Part shown: one piece after another, positions 28,874 through 36,275 of the stretch | Position numbering within the stretch: position 1 is the first letter of the stretch | Layout: every line of letters begins with the position of its first letter | Origin: Hyphomonas pacifica | GTDB taxonomy: Bacteria > Pseudomonadota > Alphaproteobacteria > Caulobacterales > Hyphomonadaceae | Direction: 5' to 3' | DNA: 64,000 nt | Assembly (NCBI RefSeq): GCF_000682675.1 | Contig: NZ_AWFA01000012.1 | Span: forward strand, 124,001-188,000 | Made by a program: the position numbers and the translations under genes | Notes under the pieces: generated by a model | Database searches by the model: none | Told to the model about the DNA's origin: nothing | Seen by the model: the letters and a program-made list of their open reading frames with translations, nothing else

Positions 28874-30745
28874 TTACCAGCCGCAGCTCTCGTCGGCGTT
28901 CTGGTCTTTCAGGTACAGCATCAGCGGATCAAAGTATTCGATGATCGCGCTGCCATCCATTTCACGGGTGCCGGTGAATTTCTCCAGCGTGTCCGGCCAT
29001 GGCTGTGAAGCGCCTGCTTCCAACATGGCGTTGAAGCGCTCGCCGACTTCCTTGTTGTCATAGATGGAGCAGCGATGCAGCGGGCCTTCCCATCCGGCCT
29101 GCTCACAGGCCGCCTTATGGAACTGGAACTGCAGGATGTAGCTGAGGAAATACCGTAGATAGGGCGTGTTGCCCGGAATGTGGTATTTGGCGCCGGGATC
29201 GAAGGCATCCGCCGGGCGCGGGGCCGGCGGCACAAGGCCCTGATTCTTCAGGCGCAGGTCCCACCAGGCCTGATTATAGTCTTCCGGCGCGGTCTTGCCG
29301 GCCAGCACATCCCATCGCCAGCCATCAACGGTCAGCGCGAAGGGCAGGAAGGCGATCTTGTCGAGCGCAGTATTCAGCAGCAGCGCCGTATCGGCCTCCT
29401 CCGGCGGAATTTGGTCTTCCGTGATCACGCCGATCTTCTGAAGATAAATGGGCGTGATGGACAGTCCGACAAAGTCCCCAATCGCTTCGTGGAAGCCATC
29501 ATGCGCGCCGTTTTTGTAGAGATAGTCCTGATCCTTGTAGGCGCGCTGATAGAAATTGTGCCCCAATTCGTGGTGCACGGTGTAGAAGTCTTCCGCGTTC
29601 ACCTCGGTGCACATCTTGATGCGGACATCTTCCTCATCATCAAGATCCCAGGCGGAGGCGTGGCAGACCACTTCCCGGTCTGCCGGGCGCACGATCATGG
29701 AGCGTTCCCAGAAGGTCTTCGGCAGTGGATCAAAGCCCAGTGAGGTGAAGAAAGCTTCCCCCGTCTCGACCATCTTGATCGGCGTATAGCCTTTTTCCCG
29801 CAGTTGCTCCGTCAGGTCATAGCTTGGCGCAACCACATCGGCCAGCCTCACGATATCATAAATGCTGGACCATTGCTGGGCCCACATATTGCCCAGCAGG
29901 TCAGCGCGGATCGGGCCGGTACGCGGCTGCACATCGTCGCCATACTTCTCGTTTAGCTTGGCGCGCGTATAGCAGTGCAGCTCCTTGTAGAGCGGCTCGA
30001 CCTGCGTCCATAGCCGCTCGACTTCGGCTTCCATCTCTTCCGGCGGCATGTCGTAGCCTGACAGCCACATCTGGTCGAGGCTCGGGAATCCCAGCTCCTC
30101 AGCACCTTCATTGGCGATCTCGACCATGCGGGCATAGTCATCCTTCATCGGCACGGAGACGGTACGCCAGCCTTCCCAGACAGCTTTCAGCTCTTCCGGA
30201 TCGCGGCTGGTTTCGATGATCGTGGAGAGTTGATCCAGATTGAGCGCTTCGCCCTTATAGGTGAACTTGCCGGTGCCATAGGTGGCGTCCAGATTGGTCG
30301 TGATCTTGGACAGCTCTTCCGCCGCGCCGGGTGTAGAGGGGGCCGGAATGGTGATGCTGGAGCGCAGGATATTCATCTTGCGGGCCAGGTCAGCCGGCAG
30401 GACGTCCACATCAAACGTCTTGGAGTCGTTGGCCAGCGACACGGCTAGCTTGGTTGAGACAGCGCCAGCCTCGGCAGCTGCAGCATTGGTCTCGTCTGTG
30501 ATATTGGTTGCTTGGTTCCAGTAGGCCTGTGCGGCAATCTTGCTCTGCGCGGCCAGTTTGGCTTCTGCCATCTCCAGGAATGCGCGAGCCTCGGCAATCT
30601 CTGCGGAATGATCCGGCTCGGCTGATGTCTCGGCAGCGGTTTCAGTCAGGTCTGCTTGGGGGGCTTCAGCTTTTTCAGGTGATGAGCAGGAGGCCAGCAC
30701 AAGCCCCAGCGCGATCACGCTGCTTGTCAGGGTCAAACGTTTCAT
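28874..30745 (-). CDS. M2-family (ACE-like) peptidyl-dipeptidase, lipoprotein
   Basis: Zinc metallopeptidase of 623 residues related to angiotensin-converting enzyme, which removes dipeptides from peptide C-termini. The zinc site HELGH with the following Glu (HEAIGDF, 24 residues on) is clear: VHHELGHNFYQRAY...GFHEAIGDFVGL. PRPADAFDPGAKYHIPGNTPYLRYF is also typical. The N-terminus is a lipoprotein signal with lipobox LASC, so it should be anchored in the periplasm, probably to feed on or recycle peptides. It is inserted between bolA and grxD on the same strand. Confidence 0.94.
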   Translation of the reverse strand: MKRLTLTSSVIALGLVLASCSSPEKAEAPQADLTETAAETSAEPDHSAEIAEARAFLEMAEAKLAAQSKIAAQAYWNQATNITDETNAAAAEAGAVSTKLAVSLANDSKTFDVDVLPADLARKMNILRSSITIPAPSTPGAAEELSKITTNLDATYGTGKFTYKGEALNLDQLSTIIETSRDPEELKAVWEGWRTVSVPMKDDYARMVEIANEGAEELGFPSLDQMWLSGYDMPPEEMEAEVERLWTQVEPLYKELHCYTRAKLNEKYGDDVQPRTGPIRADLLGNMWAQQWSSIYDIVRLADVVAPSYDLTEQLREKGYTPIKMVETGEAFFTSLGFDPLPKTFWERSMIVRPADREVVCHASAWDLDDEEDVRIKMCTEVNAEDFYTVHHELGHNFYQRAYKDQDYLYKNGAHDGFHEAIGDFVGLSITPIYLQKIGVITEDQIPPEEADTALLLNTALDKIAFLPFALTVDGWRWDVLAGKTAPEDYNQAWWDLRLKNQGLVPPAPRPADAFDPGAKYHIPGNTPYLRYFLSYILQFQFHKAACEQAGWEGPLHRCSIYDNKEVGERFNAMLEAGASQPWPDTLEKFTGTREMDGSAIIEYFDPLMLYLKDQNADESCGW

Positions 30746-30815
30746 AAGGTTGTTTCCTCATCCTTCGATGCGGGGCAAACAACCGCGAACCGTTCGTTGC
30801 GTCAATGCAGCTTGT

Positions 30816-31052
30816 TCAAGAAGATGGGGCCTTTGTCTTTAATGCCAGCGCATGAAGTTCCCCGCCCATTGTGCCTTTGAGGGCAGAATATACCAACTGA
30901 TGCTGTTTCACGCGCGGTAATCCGGCAAATTGCGGGCTGACGATTTCCGCTTGCCAGTGATTATCATCTCCGGCGAGATCAGTCAGCGTGATGTCTGCTT
31001 CCGGAAACGCATCCGTCAGATATCCAAGCAGCGTTTCGCGGGACATGGCCAT
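30816..31052 (-). CDS. BolA-family protein
   Basis: Protein of 78 residues with the BolA fold; the C-terminal part FAGLPRVKQHQLVYSALKGTMGGELHALALKTKAP holds the invariant His of RxxQHxxV that helps ligand a [2Fe-2S] cluster shared with a monothiol glutaredoxin. The partner grxD is about 2 kb downstream on the same strand. N-terminal region MSRETLLGYLTDAFPEADITLTDLAGDDNHWQAEIVS is normal. An in-frame second ATG two codons in is an alternative start. Confidence 0.94.
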   Translation of the reverse strand: MAMSRETLLGYLTDAFPEADITLTDLAGDDNHWQAEIVSPQFAGLPRVKQHQLVYSALKGTMGGELHALALKTKAPSS

Positions 31053-31192
31053 GGCAGTCTTCCTTTATTCTTGTTCCCCGCACAGGTGGCTTTTCAGACG
31101 TGCGGCGTCAAGCACCCGCACCGGGGGCGTTGTGAGGCTAGTGTCATGGGAATAGGGTGCGCACGTCTTCCACAGCACTCAGGATCTGACCC

Positions 31193-32185
31193 ATGAAGAT
31201 CGGCCGCGCGTTCATTATTTCCGAAATCCTGCTTGTCGTGACGATAATCGGGGCAGTCGTATTCTTCTCCATGCGCGACAAGCCGGACGATTCTACGACG
31301 CTTACTCATTATCAGACCCAGTATATTGACGGCCCAGCCATGCTGAATTTGACGGAGACGCTTTCCTCAGATGCCCTTCAGGGTCGCCGTACCGGCACCG
31401 AAGGTGCAGATGCGGCGATGAACTTCATCCTGAAGCGCTACGAAAATATCGGACTGGAACCAGTTGGCGACAGCTACAAACATCCATTCCCGATCACGGC
31501 GCCAGAAGACGCACCTGCGGATACGACGCCGGAAGAAGGCGTGAACGTGCTTGGCTGGATGCCTGGCAAGACGCCTGGCAAAGGCCCGATGCTGATCATC
31601 ACCGCACACTATGACCATTTGGGCATTATAGATGGAGAGATCTATAATGGCGCAGATGATAATGCGTCCGGCGTCGCTGCTATGATTGCAATTGCGGAAT
31701 ACTTCAAACGCAACCGCCCCACGCATGATATCGCCTTTGCTGCGCTGGATCGTGAGGAGATGGGCCTGCAAGGGGCCAAGGCGCTGGTCAGGTCAGATCT
31801 GATTGACCTCAAGCGCGTGGCTCTGAACATCAATCTGGATATGGTCAGCCGTTCAGAGGCAGGTGAGCTATATGTGGCAGGCACATATCATACGCCAGCT
31901 CTGCTGCCGCTAGTCAAGGAGATTGCAGCTGAAGCGCCGGTCTCGCTCATGGTTGGACATGACCAGCCAGACCTCGGGCCAGATGACTGGACGCTCGCGT
32001 CCGATCATGGGCCGTTTCACAAGGCGGGAATTCCATTCCTGTATTTCGGTGTCGAGGATCATCCAGGCTATCACCAGCCTTCAGATGATTATGTGAACAT
32101 CACCCATGACTTTTTTCTCAGGGCAGGGGACACAATCACTCTGGCTGTTGAAAAGGCAGATGTGTGGGTTGGTAGCAACTACTAA
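31193..32185 (+). CDS. M28-family zinc aminopeptidase, membrane-anchored
   Basis: Peptidase of 330 residues with one N-terminal membrane segment (about 7-25, FIISEILLVVTIIGAVVFF) and a periplasmic M28 domain. The two-zinc site is visible: His-x-Asp in TAHYDHLG, bridging Asp in NGADDNASGVAA, Glu-Glu in LDREEMGLQG, Asp in NINLDMVSR and the late His in YHQPSDDYVN. M28 enzymes release N-terminal amino acids from peptides. Together with the M2 dipeptidase nearby it could complete breakdown of peptides in the periplasm. Confidence 0.93.
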   Translation: MKIGRAFIISEILLVVTIIGAVVFFSMRDKPDDSTTLTHYQTQYIDGPAMLNLTETLSSDALQGRRTGTEGADAAMNFILKRYENIGLEPVGDSYKHPFPITAPEDAPADTTPEEGVNVLGWMPGKTPGKGPMLIITAHYDHLGIIDGEIYNGADDNASGVAAMIAIAEYFKRNRPTHDIAFAALDREEMGLQGAKALVRSDLIDLKRVALNINLDMVSRSEAGELYVAGTYHTPALLPLVKEIAAEAPVSLMVGHDQPDLGPDDWTLASDHGPFHKAGIPFLYFGVEDHPGYHQPSDDYVNITHDFFLRAGDTITLAVEKADVWVGSNY

Positions 32186-32533
32186 GTAAGATGCAATTGC
32201 CGTTTACGGATAATATCGGTCAGTCGTTTACTGCTTAAGGCGGACGCCAAAATATTATCCCTGATCTGAACAACCCTGCCTTACGCCTTGCTTTTGCATT
32301 GGTTCCGCCTGTACTGCGCATGCCCCTGCACAGGCTTAACCCCTGAGAGCGTCGGAATCGAAAAAGTTCCATTAAAACAACGTCACGTAGGGTTAATCCG
32401 CGTTAAGAATATGTGGCTTTGCAGCAACTGCTGCAGCTTGCGGAATTGTCATCGGAACGAACACAGTTCGGACACGGTTTCCTTGTGGTCTCGTCAATCT
32501 GGCGGGAGCTGATTTTTTTAAAAAGGAGACCAC
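32186..32533 (+). other. Long leader/promoter region of the outer-membrane protein gene
   Basis: 348 bases without a convincing gene. Contents: a short dyad CGAAC-ACA-GTTCG at 32458-32470, a GCAGCA/TGCTGC repeat near 32421-32434, and the inverted repeat that covers the ribosome-binding site (32484-32534). A reading frame of 74 codons here (32288-32512) has no family likeness and I do not call it. Confidence 0.6.
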
Positions 32534-32534
32534 A
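32484..32534 (+). promoter_or_regulatory. Hairpin covering the ribosome-binding site of the outer-membrane protein gene
   Basis: TGTGGTCTC (32484-32492) is the exact reverse complement of GAGACCACA (32526-32534). The right arm holds the GGAG ribosome-binding site (32525-32528) partly and the A of the start codon. If formed in the mRNA, this 9-bp stem would block translation, so it may be a temperature- or RNA-controlled switch. The loop is 33 bases, with a run of seven T. Confidence 0.5.
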
Positions 32535-33151
32535 TGTTTAAGTATATTCTGATTGCCTCAGCAGCTACGGGTCTGGCAGCAACGGCGAATGCACAGTCTT
32601 ATGACAATGACACAGGCCTCTATTTGGACGGCGGGTATCAGTATCTGGACATTAAGCCGGATGGTGCTGAGAGCGGTGTTGATACCAATGGCATTGCGGC
32701 GCGTCTTGGCTACAAGTTCAACAATGTTTTCAGCCTCGAAGGTGAATTGGCCAGCGGCATTGATGATGGTGAGTTCGACTACAATGTCGACGAAGACGAA
32801 TTCAATCTTGATGACAATGATGATGGCGACTTTGAAGACGTCATCGGTGCGTCAGGCGATATCGGCCTGAACTATCTGGTCGGTCTCTATGGCCGCGCAG
32901 ATTTGCCGGTTACGGAGCGTATGAATCTCTTCGCTCGTGCAGGTTATGCCTATATCGACGTTGATGCCTCTGTGAACACGCCCGGTGGCACCGCCATCAA
33001 TATCGAAGACTCTGCTGATGGCCCAGCCATCGGTGCGGGTCTGACCTATGACCTCAGCGAGAACTGGGAACTGCGGGGTGACTACACCTACTATTCCTTC
33101 GACAGCACCGACACGAATGGTGTGATGCTGGGTCTCGGCTACAAATTCTAA
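32534..33151 (+). CDS. Outer-membrane beta-barrel protein (OmpA/Omp25-like porin family)
   Basis: Protein of 205 residues: Sec signal peptide (ending ATANA), then an eight-strand beta-barrel pattern with alternating hydrophobic residues, closing in the outer-membrane C-terminal signature ...NGVMLGLGYKF with final Phe. Segments such as LYLDGGYQYLDIKP, IAARLGYKFNNVFSLEGELA and WELRGDYTYYSFDS are barrel strands; an acidic Asp/Glu-rich loop (about 78-100) would face outside. Role probably structural or small-molecule passage. AAGGAG lies before the ATG but inside a possible hairpin. A terminator follows. Confidence 0.88.
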   Translation: MFKYILIASAATGLAATANAQSYDNDTGLYLDGGYQYLDIKPDGAESGVDTNGIAARLGYKFNNVFSLEGELASGIDDGEFDYNVDEDEFNLDDNDDGDFEDVIGASGDIGLNYLVGLYGRADLPVTERMNLFARAGYAYIDVDASVNTPGGTAINIEDSADGPAIGAGLTYDLSENWELRGDYTYYSFDSTDTNGVMLGLGYKF

Positions 33152-33178
33152 TCGAACGTAATTGTAGTTGAATGGATT

Positions 33179-33209
33179 GCCCCTCTCGCAGAATGCGGGA
33201 GGGGCTTTT
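33179..33209 (+). terminator. Terminator of the outer-membrane protein gene
   Basis: Stem GCCCCTC-TCGCA (33179-33190) / TGCGG-GAGGGGC (33194-33205), 12 pairs with one G-T wobble, loop GAA, then TTTT. Confidence 0.85.
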
Positions 33210-33214
33210 CACAT

Positions 33215-35482
33215 TCAGTCTACGGAATCCATATAAGTCGGCAGCCAGCCTTCATGTGCCTCGCGGAGCGTCGCCAGGGAGATCGACTGGGCCTCTGAGC
33301 CCACCAAGGTGAACTCAATCGCATCGCCCTTGAACTTGCCGACTTGCGTATAGGGCAGACCAAGGTCTTTCAGTTTCTGGTGCGTGGCCTCTTCGTCGGC
33401 GGCATCCACAGCGATGACAAACCGGTTCTGATCTTCCCCAAACAAATAGCCGAGCTGTCCGGCTTTGGGTCCATAGATCTCGACGCCGACACCGCTGGCC
33501 AGCGCCATCTCGGCCAGCGTGCAGGCAACGCCGCCATCGCTGACATCATGCACAGCGCGCACAGCGCCATCTTTGATCAGTTTGCGGACTTCTGTACTAA
33601 TACGCACCGTCTCTTTCAGGTCCACTGCCGGGGAGGTGCCAAGGTCATCCCCCTTCAGGCCCAGAATTGTGCGGGCATAGAGGGACGCGCCAAGCTCGCT
33701 GCCCGCCGCGCCAATCAAGAAGGCTACATCGCCCGCTTGCGCACCTTTCAACGTGATAATCTGCGACACATCCTCTATCAGGCCCACGCCGCCGACAACC
33801 GGCGTTGGCGGGATCGCCTTCCCGTCGGTCTCGTTGTAGAGGGACACGTTGCCAGAGACGACCGGGAAGTCGAGCTCGCGGCAGGCCTCGGCCATGCCTT
33901 CGATGGCCTTCACGATATAGCCCATCGTGTTCGGCTTTTCCGGATTGCCAAAATTGAGATTATCGGTGATCGCAATCGGCGTTGCGCCCACGGCAGACAG
34001 GTTGCGATAGGCTTCCGCCACAACGGCCTTTCCGCCTTCAAACGGGTCCGCTGCCACATAATGCGGGTTGCAGTCGGAACAAATCGCCAGCGCCTTGTTC
34101 GTGTCGTGGATGCGGACAATCGCTGCATCCCCCTGCGACTGGGAGCTGTCGACCGTGTCGCCCATCACATGCCGATCATATTGTTCCCAGATCCAGCGCT
34201 TGGAGGCCATGTCCGGACAGGACATTAGCTTCAGCAGCACATCGCAATAATTGTCAGGCTCGGAATATTTTGAAATGTCCAGGGCGGCCCGCTTCGGGGG
34301 CTCGTTCCAGGGGCGGTCATAATTCGGCGCATCATCGGCCAGCGGGGCAACCGGAATATCGCAAACCACTTCGCCGAACTGCTTCAGGACCAGATGGCCA
34401 TTGTCTGTCGTTTCGCCGATCACTTCGGCATCGAGGTCGTATTTGTCGAAGATGGCTTTCGCGACATCAATCTTGTCGGGATAGAGCACCATCAGCATGC
34501 GCTCCTGGCTCTCCGACAGCATGATCTCGTAGGCGGTCATGCCTTCCTCGCGCTGAGGCACCTTGTCTAGGTCCATGACCACGCCGATGCCTTCGCCATT
34601 CTCGCCGCCGCTGGCCGCCATTTCGACAGAGGAAGACGTCAGGCCCGCAGCGCCCATGTCCTGGATCGCCTGAATGGCGTCGGTCGCCATCAGTTCGAGG
34701 CAGGCCTCGATCAGCAGCTTCTCGGTAAACGGGTCGCCCACCTGAACCGTTGGGCGTTTCTCTTCGTCACCTTCAGAGAATTCAGCAGACGCCATGGTCG
34801 CGCCATGGATTCCGTCACGACCGGTTTTGGAACCAACATAGAAGATCGGGTTTCCGGGCGTTGCGCCGCGCGCATAGAAGATCTTGTCCTGATCTGCGAG
34901 GCCAACCGCCATAGCATTCACCAGGATATTGCCATTATAACCTTCGTCAAACTGCGTCTCGCCGGCGACCGTCGGCACGCCAACGCAATTGCCATAGCCG
35001 CCAATGCCTGCCACGACACCGGCGACGAGGCTGCGTGTCTTCGGGTGGTCAGGGGAGCCAAAGCGTAGCGCATTGACCAGCGCAATCGGGCGGGCGCCCA
35101 TGGTGAAGACATCGCGCAGAATGCCGCCTACGCCTGTAGCTGCGCCCTGATAGGGCTCGATATAGGACGGGTGGTTGTGGCTCTCCATTTTGAAGATGGC
35201 CGCCTGGCCATCGCCAATGTCGATCACACCGGCATTTTCGCCCGGCCCCTGAATGACGCGGTCATTCTTGGTCGGGAATTTCGACAGGTGCCGACGGGAT
35301 GATTTGTAGGAGCAGTGCTCGGACCACATCACCGAATAGATACCAAGTTCCACAAGGTTTGGCTTGCGCTCCAGGCGCGTCACAAGACGCTCCCATTCGT
35401 CGGCCTTGATGCCATGTTCCAGGCCGGCAGCTTCATCCTGCTCGGCGGTGAGGTGGGCGAGGATCGCAGATGTGTCAGTCAT
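33215..35482 (-). CDS. purL: Phosphoribosylformylglycinamidine synthase subunit II
   Basis: ATP-dependent conversion of FGAR to FGAM in purine synthesis, acting with PurQ (which supplies ammonia) and PurS. 755 residues from the ATG at 35482, normal for the small PurL; a GTG at 35509 would add nine residues. Features: [78 protein letters not shown] and the second repeat with [11 protein letters not shown] and [16 protein letters not shown]. purQ is on the same strand 5.4 kb upstream and bolA 2.2 kb downstream, although these genes usually touch. purS is not in the window. Confidence 0.97.
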
Positions 35483-35642
35483 GCCCGGCGCTTTAGCGGC
35501 AATTGCCACGAGTCGCCAGACTCTATTGCCGTTCAGACGCCGTTAGAGGCCGCTTTTCGCAAAATGAACGCATTTTAACGAAGCCTTCCGGAGGGGTGGG
35601 CGTTGAAACAGCTGAACAGGCAGCTTTGGAAAGGAGCCGACC

Positions 35643-36275
35643 GTGAAGCAACATCTACTCATTCTGGCAGCACCCCTGCTTGCTGTAGCCTGCGGACAGA
35701 ACGTCACCAAGGCAGATGGCGAGGCCATGCCCGCGCCTACGCCCATCAACTCCGCCGACAAGGACACGAAGAAGGCCGACAAGGCTCCTGAAATCCAGGT
35801 GACTGAAGTCAAAGGCGCATGGGAGAAGACCGATACCCCCCGTGGCCAGCAAGTGGCCTACTTGTCGGAAGATGGTGAGGTCAGCCTGTCGATTACGTGT
35901 CAGGAGCCTGACGCTTTTGCAGGCGAAGACGGCCAGAACGTACTGGTTCTGCGCCGCACATTCGCGGGCAAGGATGCCCCGTCCCAGGTCGGCGTGTTCA
36001 CCTCGGCCAGCAATGCGGCCATCGTCGCTCAGGTAGATGAAGAGAGCCAGGAAATCGTCGGCATGTTCGATACGCGTTCAACGGCGGCTAATGCCCTGGC
36101 CAATGGAGATGGTGATCTTCGCTTTGTTGCTGGTCAGAGCGCTTATGTCATGCCGACTGACCCGATGGTTGAAGAGCTGATCGAAACCTGCCGCCCGCCG
36201 ATCGAGAGCAATTTGGAGGGCGCCAACACGGAAAATGAAGAAGAGGCTGAGGCTCCATCCGATTCCGGAACCTGA
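35643..36275 (+). CDS. Predicted lipoprotein, unknown function
   Basis: I do not recognise a family. Protein of 210 residues with a lipoprotein-type signal (LLAVACGQ), a Pro/Lys-rich linker (about 25-50), a compact middle region with one Cys (LSITCQE) and another near the end (ETCRPP), then an acidic tail. The start is GTG at 35643 with AAGGAG six bases upstream. It is divergent from purL (about 160 bases) and convergent with the TonB receptor; a strong hairpin lies between them. Confidence 0.7.
   Translation: MKQHLLILAAPLLAVACGQNVTKADGEAMPAPTPINSADKDTKKADKAPEIQVTEVKGAWEKTDTPRGQQVAYLSEDGEVSLSITCQEPDAFAGEDGQNVLVLRRTFAGKDAPSQVGVFTSASNAAIVAQVDEESQEIVGMFDTRSTAANALANGDGDLRFVAGQSAYVMPTDPMVEELIETCRPPIESNLEGANTENEEEAEAPSDSGT

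Follow-up and report, generated by a model that had tools for sequence, protein, structure and literature searches.

A candidate EcfG-type promoter and 5'-proximal stem-loop ahead of an outer-membrane protein gene of Hyphomonas pacifica, with a competing helix over the ribosome-binding site

The window (the whole stretch of DNA analyzed here) comprises 64,000 nucleotides of a Hyphomonas pacifica contig (NZ_AWFA01000012.1, positions 124,001 to 188,000 of the forward strand), and all positions below are those of the window. It contains a gene for an outer-membrane beta-barrel protein, and the following features were identified in and upstream of that gene.

32454-32458, + strand: GGAAC, -35 element of an EcfG-type promoter motif that is kept in 54 of 58 orthologue upstream regions
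32476-32479, + strand: GGTT, -10 element, spacer 17; GGTT in the 8 clade A members, CGTT in 43 of 54 and TGTT in 3 of 54
32484-32492, + strand: TGTGGTCTC, left arm of the 9-bp helix, sharing TCTC with the local hairpin; invariant in clade A except for 32484 in L008
32487-32489, + strand: predicted start of transcription, with 32488 (9 nt past the -10) as the best candidate, from a purine signature and the RpoE2 pattern
32489-32507, + strand: TCTCGTC-AATCT-GGCGGGA, local hairpin close to the predicted 5' end; hairpins recur at this position across the family
32524-32528, + strand: Shine-Dalgarno (SD) AGGAG, read from the sequence
32526-32534, + strand: GAGACCACA, right arm of the 9-bp helix, which takes in part of the SD plus the A of the ATG
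32534-33151, + strand: gene encoding an outer-membrane beta-barrel protein of 205 aa (Pfam match to PF13505, OMP_b-brl, with E 4.5e-25)

An earlier note on this DNA described the two arms as a hairpin that would hide the ribosome-binding site of an outer-membrane protein mRNA. The arms TGTGGTCTC and GAGACCACA are indeed perfect complements (100% complementary, 33 nt apart, with their positions exact), and the Pfam match confirms that an outer-membrane protein gene lies downstream of them. The right arm was said to cover GGAG and the first base of the AUG; it does take in the A of the ATG (32534) and the GAG, but the G at 32525 is unpaired. An Rfam search of positions 30000-36000 of the window at E values up to 1 matched no family. 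A leader peptide beginning at a TTG (32483-32512, seen by eye) was rejected, since its first codon lies ahead of the predicted transcript start and L008 lacks the TTG. Directly 3' of the gene we observed by eye a terminator-like hairpin, CCCCTCTCGCAGAATGCGGGAGGGGCTTTT (33180-33209), which is absent from the list of the terminator scan.

The 50 nt upstream of 334 ORF starts, taken from 464 kb of this organism's genome, were compared with the respective ribosome-binding sites; these starts were called crudely and 36 of them lacked an SD-like word. A perfect 9-bp helix was found at one start, the one described here, with 8 bp at 2 and 7 bp at 9 of the same starts. Base-composition shuffles reached at least 9 bp at 0.078% of starts, or about 0.26 expected per 334. 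Chance is therefore an unlikely source of the match, as the note had held, when a single gene is specified beforehand, but over the whole genome a few such helices would be expected at the shuffle rate. The overall stability of the 83-nt region was not unusual (z -0.67, with 45 of 200 shuffles folding at least as well). We also considered the arm sequence as a repeated DNA half-site and rejected it: GTGGTCTC occurs 8 times in the pieces of the organism's own genome, two of these being the arms, against about 14.5 expected if base composition is taken as uniform, so there is no sign of a widespread site.

Orthologues of the gene were collected from three sources: 61 related genomes, of which 53 matched; 105 genomes of the family, of which 59 matched at 1e-20; and 33 named loci. 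The related- and family-genome sets overlap, and the loci were taken for the best of the matches. Twenty further family matches were added and two (G089 and G123) were left out. Merging identical upstream regions gave 58 distinct ones; L024, L043 and L028 were without a usable start, L030 and L031 are absent from the upstream set (E-value threshold 1e-15), and L023 was retained with its start placed at a downstream TTG. The named near relatives are Hyphomonas. Eight sequences form what we call clade A: the window's own (L002), L003, L004 (H. beringensis), L005, L006 (H. atlantica), L007, L008 and L065.

The pattern GGAAC-N16/17-[CTG]GTT is present upstream in 54 of the 58 distinct regions; the four that lack it (L029, L091, L092 and L094) were excluded from the 54 leaders analyzed below. 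The spacer is 17 nt in 41 of these promoters and 16 nt in 13, and the window's own promoter reads GGAAC-N17-GGTT. By its sequence this motif matches that of the alphaproteobacterial general-stress sigma factor EcfG, for which the consensus is given as GGAAC-N16-CGTT (PMC7083833, PMC4287350) and as GGAACN16-17cgTT (PMC6011840). GGTT, the form found in all eight clade A members, is described for Sphingopyxis as one of the frequent -10 variants and was used there for in vitro transcription (PMC7083833), and a table for S. melonis contains CGGTT sites and includes outer-membrane proteins among the EcfG-dependent genes (PMC6599016). A single locus of the genome itself (L130, C7:74000-85057) encodes PhyR and NepR together with EcfG-like proteins; there we found the domains of PhyR (PF22029, PF22233 and Response_reg) and NepR (PF18557) and two sigma-70 r2/r4 proteins, as well as further GGAAC-N16-CGTT matches. 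Additional PhyR_sigma2 matches were seen on contigs C11 and C24, and the genome possibly holds several EcfG-like paralogues. Genome-wide the sigma-site pattern is not specific (23 matches, compared to 20 for the reversed pattern), so the case for the promoter rests on its conservation at this place. No sigma-70-like site was found in 32186-32540. The outer-membrane gene is probably EcfG-dependent.

Two other elements were observed upstream of the promoter. The first is a dyad, TTAATCCGCGTTAA (32393-32406), both halves of which are present in seven of the eight clade A genomes (L007 reads TTAG) within an otherwise diverged region; it is absent from the alignment of the sister clade, clade B, and has one match in the window compared to 0.05 expected. 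This dyad is possibly a regulator site, although for a CtrA-like site its spacing is off by one. The second is GCAACT at 32424-32429. In 34 of the 54 orthologues, GC[AC]ACA or GCAACT precedes GGAAC by 30-32 nt, and this fixed spacing suggests a candidate activator site.

We examined 43 distinct sequences, of which many are related to one another: 77% have a purine 9 nt past the -10, and 81% have a pyrimidine at 8 nt. The pattern reported for RpoE2 of NT-26 is GGAAC-N18-TT-N8-G, in which the G would be the start, and in a Caulobacter SigT site the GGAAC is placed at -34. The 9-nt signature agrees with the RpoE2 pattern and, within a base or two, with the SigT site. The 5' end is thus predicted at about 32487-32489, with 32488 as the best candidate, which lies inside the left arm. 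The window has a G at each of 6, 8 and 9 nt past the -10 (32485, 32487 and 32488), so 32485 or 32487 could also serve as the start. The predicted start is not downstream of 32492, a position that by the earlier note would remove the left arm and refute its hairpin, but it does remove 3-5 of that arm's nine bases.

The location of the 5' end decides between two folds in our folding model, because TCTC (32489-32492) belongs to both the 9-bp helix and the local stem TCTCGTC/GGCGGGA. With the window sequence, transcripts starting at 32484 or 32485 form the long helix at about 1.0 and cover the SD, those starting at 32486-32487 give mixed folds, and those starting at 32488 or later give the local hairpin with the long helix at 0.07 or less. 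For the start at 32487 the outcome depends on the length of coding sequence folded: the long helix ranges from 0.15 to 0.73 between 15 and 37 C, and at 37 C it is 0.66-0.73 in one folding and 0.19 with the other coding-sequence length. From the 9-nt start, all eight clade A leaders form the local hairpin at 0.96 or more at 15-37 C, with the long helix at 0.03 or less, and from the 8-nt start six of the eight form it at 0.81 or more, L003 and L004 being mixed. From the 6-nt start, the long helix reaches at least 0.84 in six of eight; it is 0.09-0.32 in L005 and 0.45-0.52 in L007, in both of which the long helix is weaker and the local stem stronger. When the window sequence was folded at several temperatures from 32484 or 32485, the full-length helix was still at 0.93 or more at 65 C, and the RNA thermometer that the note had offered as one function of the helix was discarded.

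The SD is predicted to be mostly paired whichever fold forms. The open fraction of GGAG in clade A at 25 C is 0.00-0.25 from the 6-nt start and 0.00-0.39 from the 9-nt start, and from later starts GGAG is mostly paired through other weak pairs. A looser measure, the openness of the 5-nt SD, gave 0.39-0.55 in clade A, similar to 45 other orthologues with a median of 0.42. Transcripts that begin at the -10 box or further upstream have the SD 0.00-0.23 open in the eight clade A genomes, and in these longer transcripts other folds often prevail over the long helix even though the SD is shut. By eye, the -10 stretch GGTTTCCTT (32476-32484) is complementary to AAGGAGACC (32523-32531) with one G-U pair, and the largely shut SD of a read-through transcript is partly due to this complementarity.

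These folds raise the idea of a bistable leader selected by start site, in which the EcfG start would yield the 5' hairpin and a start approximately 3 nt upstream would yield a helix locking the SD and AUG, so that the choice of transcription start, and not a ligand or temperature, would set translation of the outer-membrane protein. The UCUC strand (32489-32492) does serve two mutually exclusive helices, the fold flips between starts at 32485 and 32488, and the conserved clade-specific dyad at 32393-32406 could be counted in favor of such regulation. However, no second start is known and the region holds no sigma-70-like site, the longer transcripts keep the SD shut often without the long helix as winner, and GGAG is not clearly more open in the hairpin form. 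The last result led us to lower the already slim odds of this arrangement a little further, and we regard it as very improbable.

Both arms are kept in all eight clade A genomes, the window's own included, the sole change being the outermost base (32484) in L008, while 67 of 73 four-fold sites (92%) are variable in the same clade, with a mean pairwise difference of 0.46 and near-saturated silent divergence. In clade B (7 genomes) 71 of 79 four-fold sites are variable with a mean pairwise difference of 0.48, and there the sequence between the SD and ATG varies despite silent divergence equal to that of clade A. Because the arms are kept against this background and clade B varies, the arms look constrained in clade A. 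The check for covariation that the note had proposed went against the pairing: among the eight clade A genomes the arms show no compensatory change, and in the other 46 promoter-bearing leaders the duplex of a leader's own 5' end with its ribosome-binding site was, as a group, no stronger than duplexes swapped between species. The number falling below their swapped mean was 14-20 of the 46, varying with the start used. L071, L027 and L067 top their own swaps at some starts, first ranks that we take to be chance among many tests. Invariance of the right arm is not specific to pairing either, since genus g15 (Henriciella) retains CCTCCC before the ATG in 14 of 14 genomes, which have no such pairing, and clade C retains GAACCC before the ATG in 4 of 4.

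Within clade A the swap test depends on the start. With starts 6, 7 or 8 nt past the -10, the own duplex is stronger than that with any of the 46 swapped partners in eight of eight genomes; at 9 nt it is equalled or beaten by 4-11 of the 46 and at 10 nt by 16-29. This result bears on an SD-sequestering leader, in which the main transcript would have the whole left arm and the helix would block translation until a small RNA, a ribosome or a protein opened it. The kept arms of clade A beside a sister clade that varies before the ATG, the swap results at 6-8 nt and the helix at about 1.0 from 32484-32485 all suit this possibility, but the predicted start lies 3-5 nt inside the left arm, the own duplex loses its lead at 9 and 10 nt, compensatory changes are wanting in clade A with no group signal outside it, and the helix is weaker in L005 and L007 and too stable for a thermometer. 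We consider sequestration unlikely as the main role. The clade A conservation of GTGG and CCAC (ACCAC) is left unexplained by the local hairpin, and for this reason both the SD block and the much less probable start-site switch were kept under consideration. The reading of the 9-bp helix as hiding the ribosome-binding site is thus only partly supported: the helix forms almost fully from 32484 or 32485, and GGAG is mostly paired anyway, but the start is predicted inside the left arm. The related suggestion of a pre-formed translation block is favored by the invariant arms in clade A and opposed by the lack of group pairing in the 46 others.

The local hairpin was analyzed across the 54 leaders. 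Its region (34 nt from 7 nt past the -10) has a mean z of -2.1, whereas the stretch ahead of the promoter gives -0.5 and the first codons give +0.7; a reversed-sequence control is uninformative here, since a hairpin reversed is still a hairpin. With predicted starts picked among 8-10 nt by a purine rule, 51 of the 54 leaders show an overhang of 3 nt or less before the first stem and 48 combine this with a dG of -6 or below, while shuffled leaders satisfy both in 22%. Pair counts used 35 of the 54 leaders, the other 19 being omitted as near-duplicates or judged hard to align (L004, L006, L008, L012, L023, L026, L027, L066, L069, L070, L073, L077, L082, L083, L087, L090, L093, L095 and L096); of those omitted, L066, L090 and L093 fold into hairpins, and L026, L027, L095 and L096 form weak hairpins or none. 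L071 was left out of both subsets described next because of its register.

In subset A3 (15 Henriciella/oceanitis/johnsonii-type leaders) 105 of 105 cells pair and four of seven pairs change on both sides, and on four measures none of 500 shuffles attained the observed value, while on the fifth 20 of 500 did, with the reservation that covariation cells stand for few independent events on the tree. Subset A2 (19 Hyphomonas/Ponticaulis-type leaders, clade A included) is less clear. Here 82.7% of cells pair, a fraction above all slid versions (37.6-57.9%), and the number of pair types also beats the slid versions. There was no excess over shuffles in this subset, where the pairing was reached by 114 of 500 and the covariation score by 92 of 500; two of seven pairs change on both sides, which 86 of 500 shuffles reach, and a slid partner gives three. 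In a swap test of the hairpin the grouping put 43 of 53 sequences together as a single chained group, and the p-value of that test was not relied on. The 9-bp helix was found in one Hyphomonas clade only; as modelled, it is the local stem-loop, rather than this helix, that is the element common to the family.

Dyads just downstream of promoters can be repressor sites, and the fixed position of the element directly after the promoter would suit a DNA operator as well as an RNA hairpin. The stem sequences, however, differ among groups while pairing persists, and A2 and A3 together have 38 G-U cells compared to 5 A-C cells on the mRNA strand, an asymmetry that an operator would not favor. The RNA hairpin is therefore preferred and an operator seems distinctly improbable. 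The hairpin is followed in the window by seven T, and a scan marked 32489-32507 with this T-run as terminator-like (0.5 expected, for a smaller region), as a terminator or attenuator in the leader would require. The T7 run is present in just one of the eight clade A sequences, the others reading TTTTGTC, ACACGTC or TCACGTC, so an intrinsic terminator was rejected as not conserved and we give attenuation hardly any credence.

Our preferred reading, to which we assign a probability of roughly 0.55, is that this is an outer-membrane mRNA with an EcfG-type promoter, a start at about 32488 and a 5'-terminal stem-loop acting as a stabilizer like that of ompA. An EcfG (general stress response) type promoter would transcribe the beta-barrel mRNA from about 32488, giving a leader of roughly 46 nt with the stem-loop 32489-32507 at 0-3 nt from the 5' end. 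In E. coli ompA, a base-paired 5' end slows RppH/RNase E-dependent mRNA decay, and the 5'-terminal stem-loop was reportedly described as an mRNA stabilizer by Emory, Bouvet and Belasco in 1992. By analogy only, the most likely role of a base-paired 5' end in our leader would be to slow such decay as well, so that a stress-induced envelope mRNA would last. The arms, the promoter motif, the purine signature, the hairpin with its pattern of pairing and the competing helices of the folding model are computed results, and from these we infer the exact start, the dependence on EcfG and the stabilizing role. The 9-bp helix re-uses the TCTC strand, and the predicted start would cut most of its pairing off. 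In the folding model it is at most a minor alternative fold of transcripts starting a few bases upstream, and it may be such a fold or a chance by-product in one clade. The 9-bp match is thus real as a sequence feature, with its function partly misread in the earlier note. A stress promoter with a 5' hairpin is a known kind of arrangement and the likelier function here. The case also warns that perfect pairing across an SD can be largely an artefact when the transcription start is not known.

In SD-sequestering leaders and RNA thermometers, one arm is complementary to the SD and start codon. The leader studied here resembles them in the complementarity of its right and left arms over these elements, and differs in that its helix is likely truncated by the start, stays unmelted to 65 C in the model and was found in one clade only. 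Narrow literature searches, from which we claim no absence, found no report of an RNA thermometer for an alphaproteobacterial outer membrane protein and none of a promoter switch.

The promoter resembles those of EcfG, SigT and RpoE2 in its GGAAC-N16/17-CGTT pattern with GGTT as an accepted variant, and in a genome that encodes PhyR-NepR-EcfG (PMC7083833, PMC6599016, PMC6011840 and PMC4287350). As in the EcfG regulon of S. melonis, where outer-membrane proteins are listed among EcfG-dependent genes (PMC6599016), an outer-membrane gene is involved, with EcfG dependence here being predicted. Post-transcriptional control within a general-stress regulon is described in Caulobacter, in which GsrN activates the katG leader (PMC5869019). 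Our sequence is likewise the leader of a candidate general-stress gene and has a G-rich stretch, GGCGGGAG; the action of GsrN, in contrast, was demonstrated on katG and not on a gene of this type. In contrast to the stress role proposed here, E. coli ompA mRNA is described as destabilized in slow growth (PMC7509114).

The leader is like that of E. coli ompA in belonging to an outer-membrane beta-barrel mRNA, in having a stem-loop 0-3 nt from its predicted 5' end and in keeping the SD outside the stem, and unlike it in its EcfG-type promoter, such that the stem-loop would serve a stress regulon. If this reading is right, an alphaproteobacterial family joins a promoter of the general-stress type to a stem-loop at the 5' terminus of an envelope mRNA, possibly a convergent solution with E. 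coli ompA that is reached by a different sequence.
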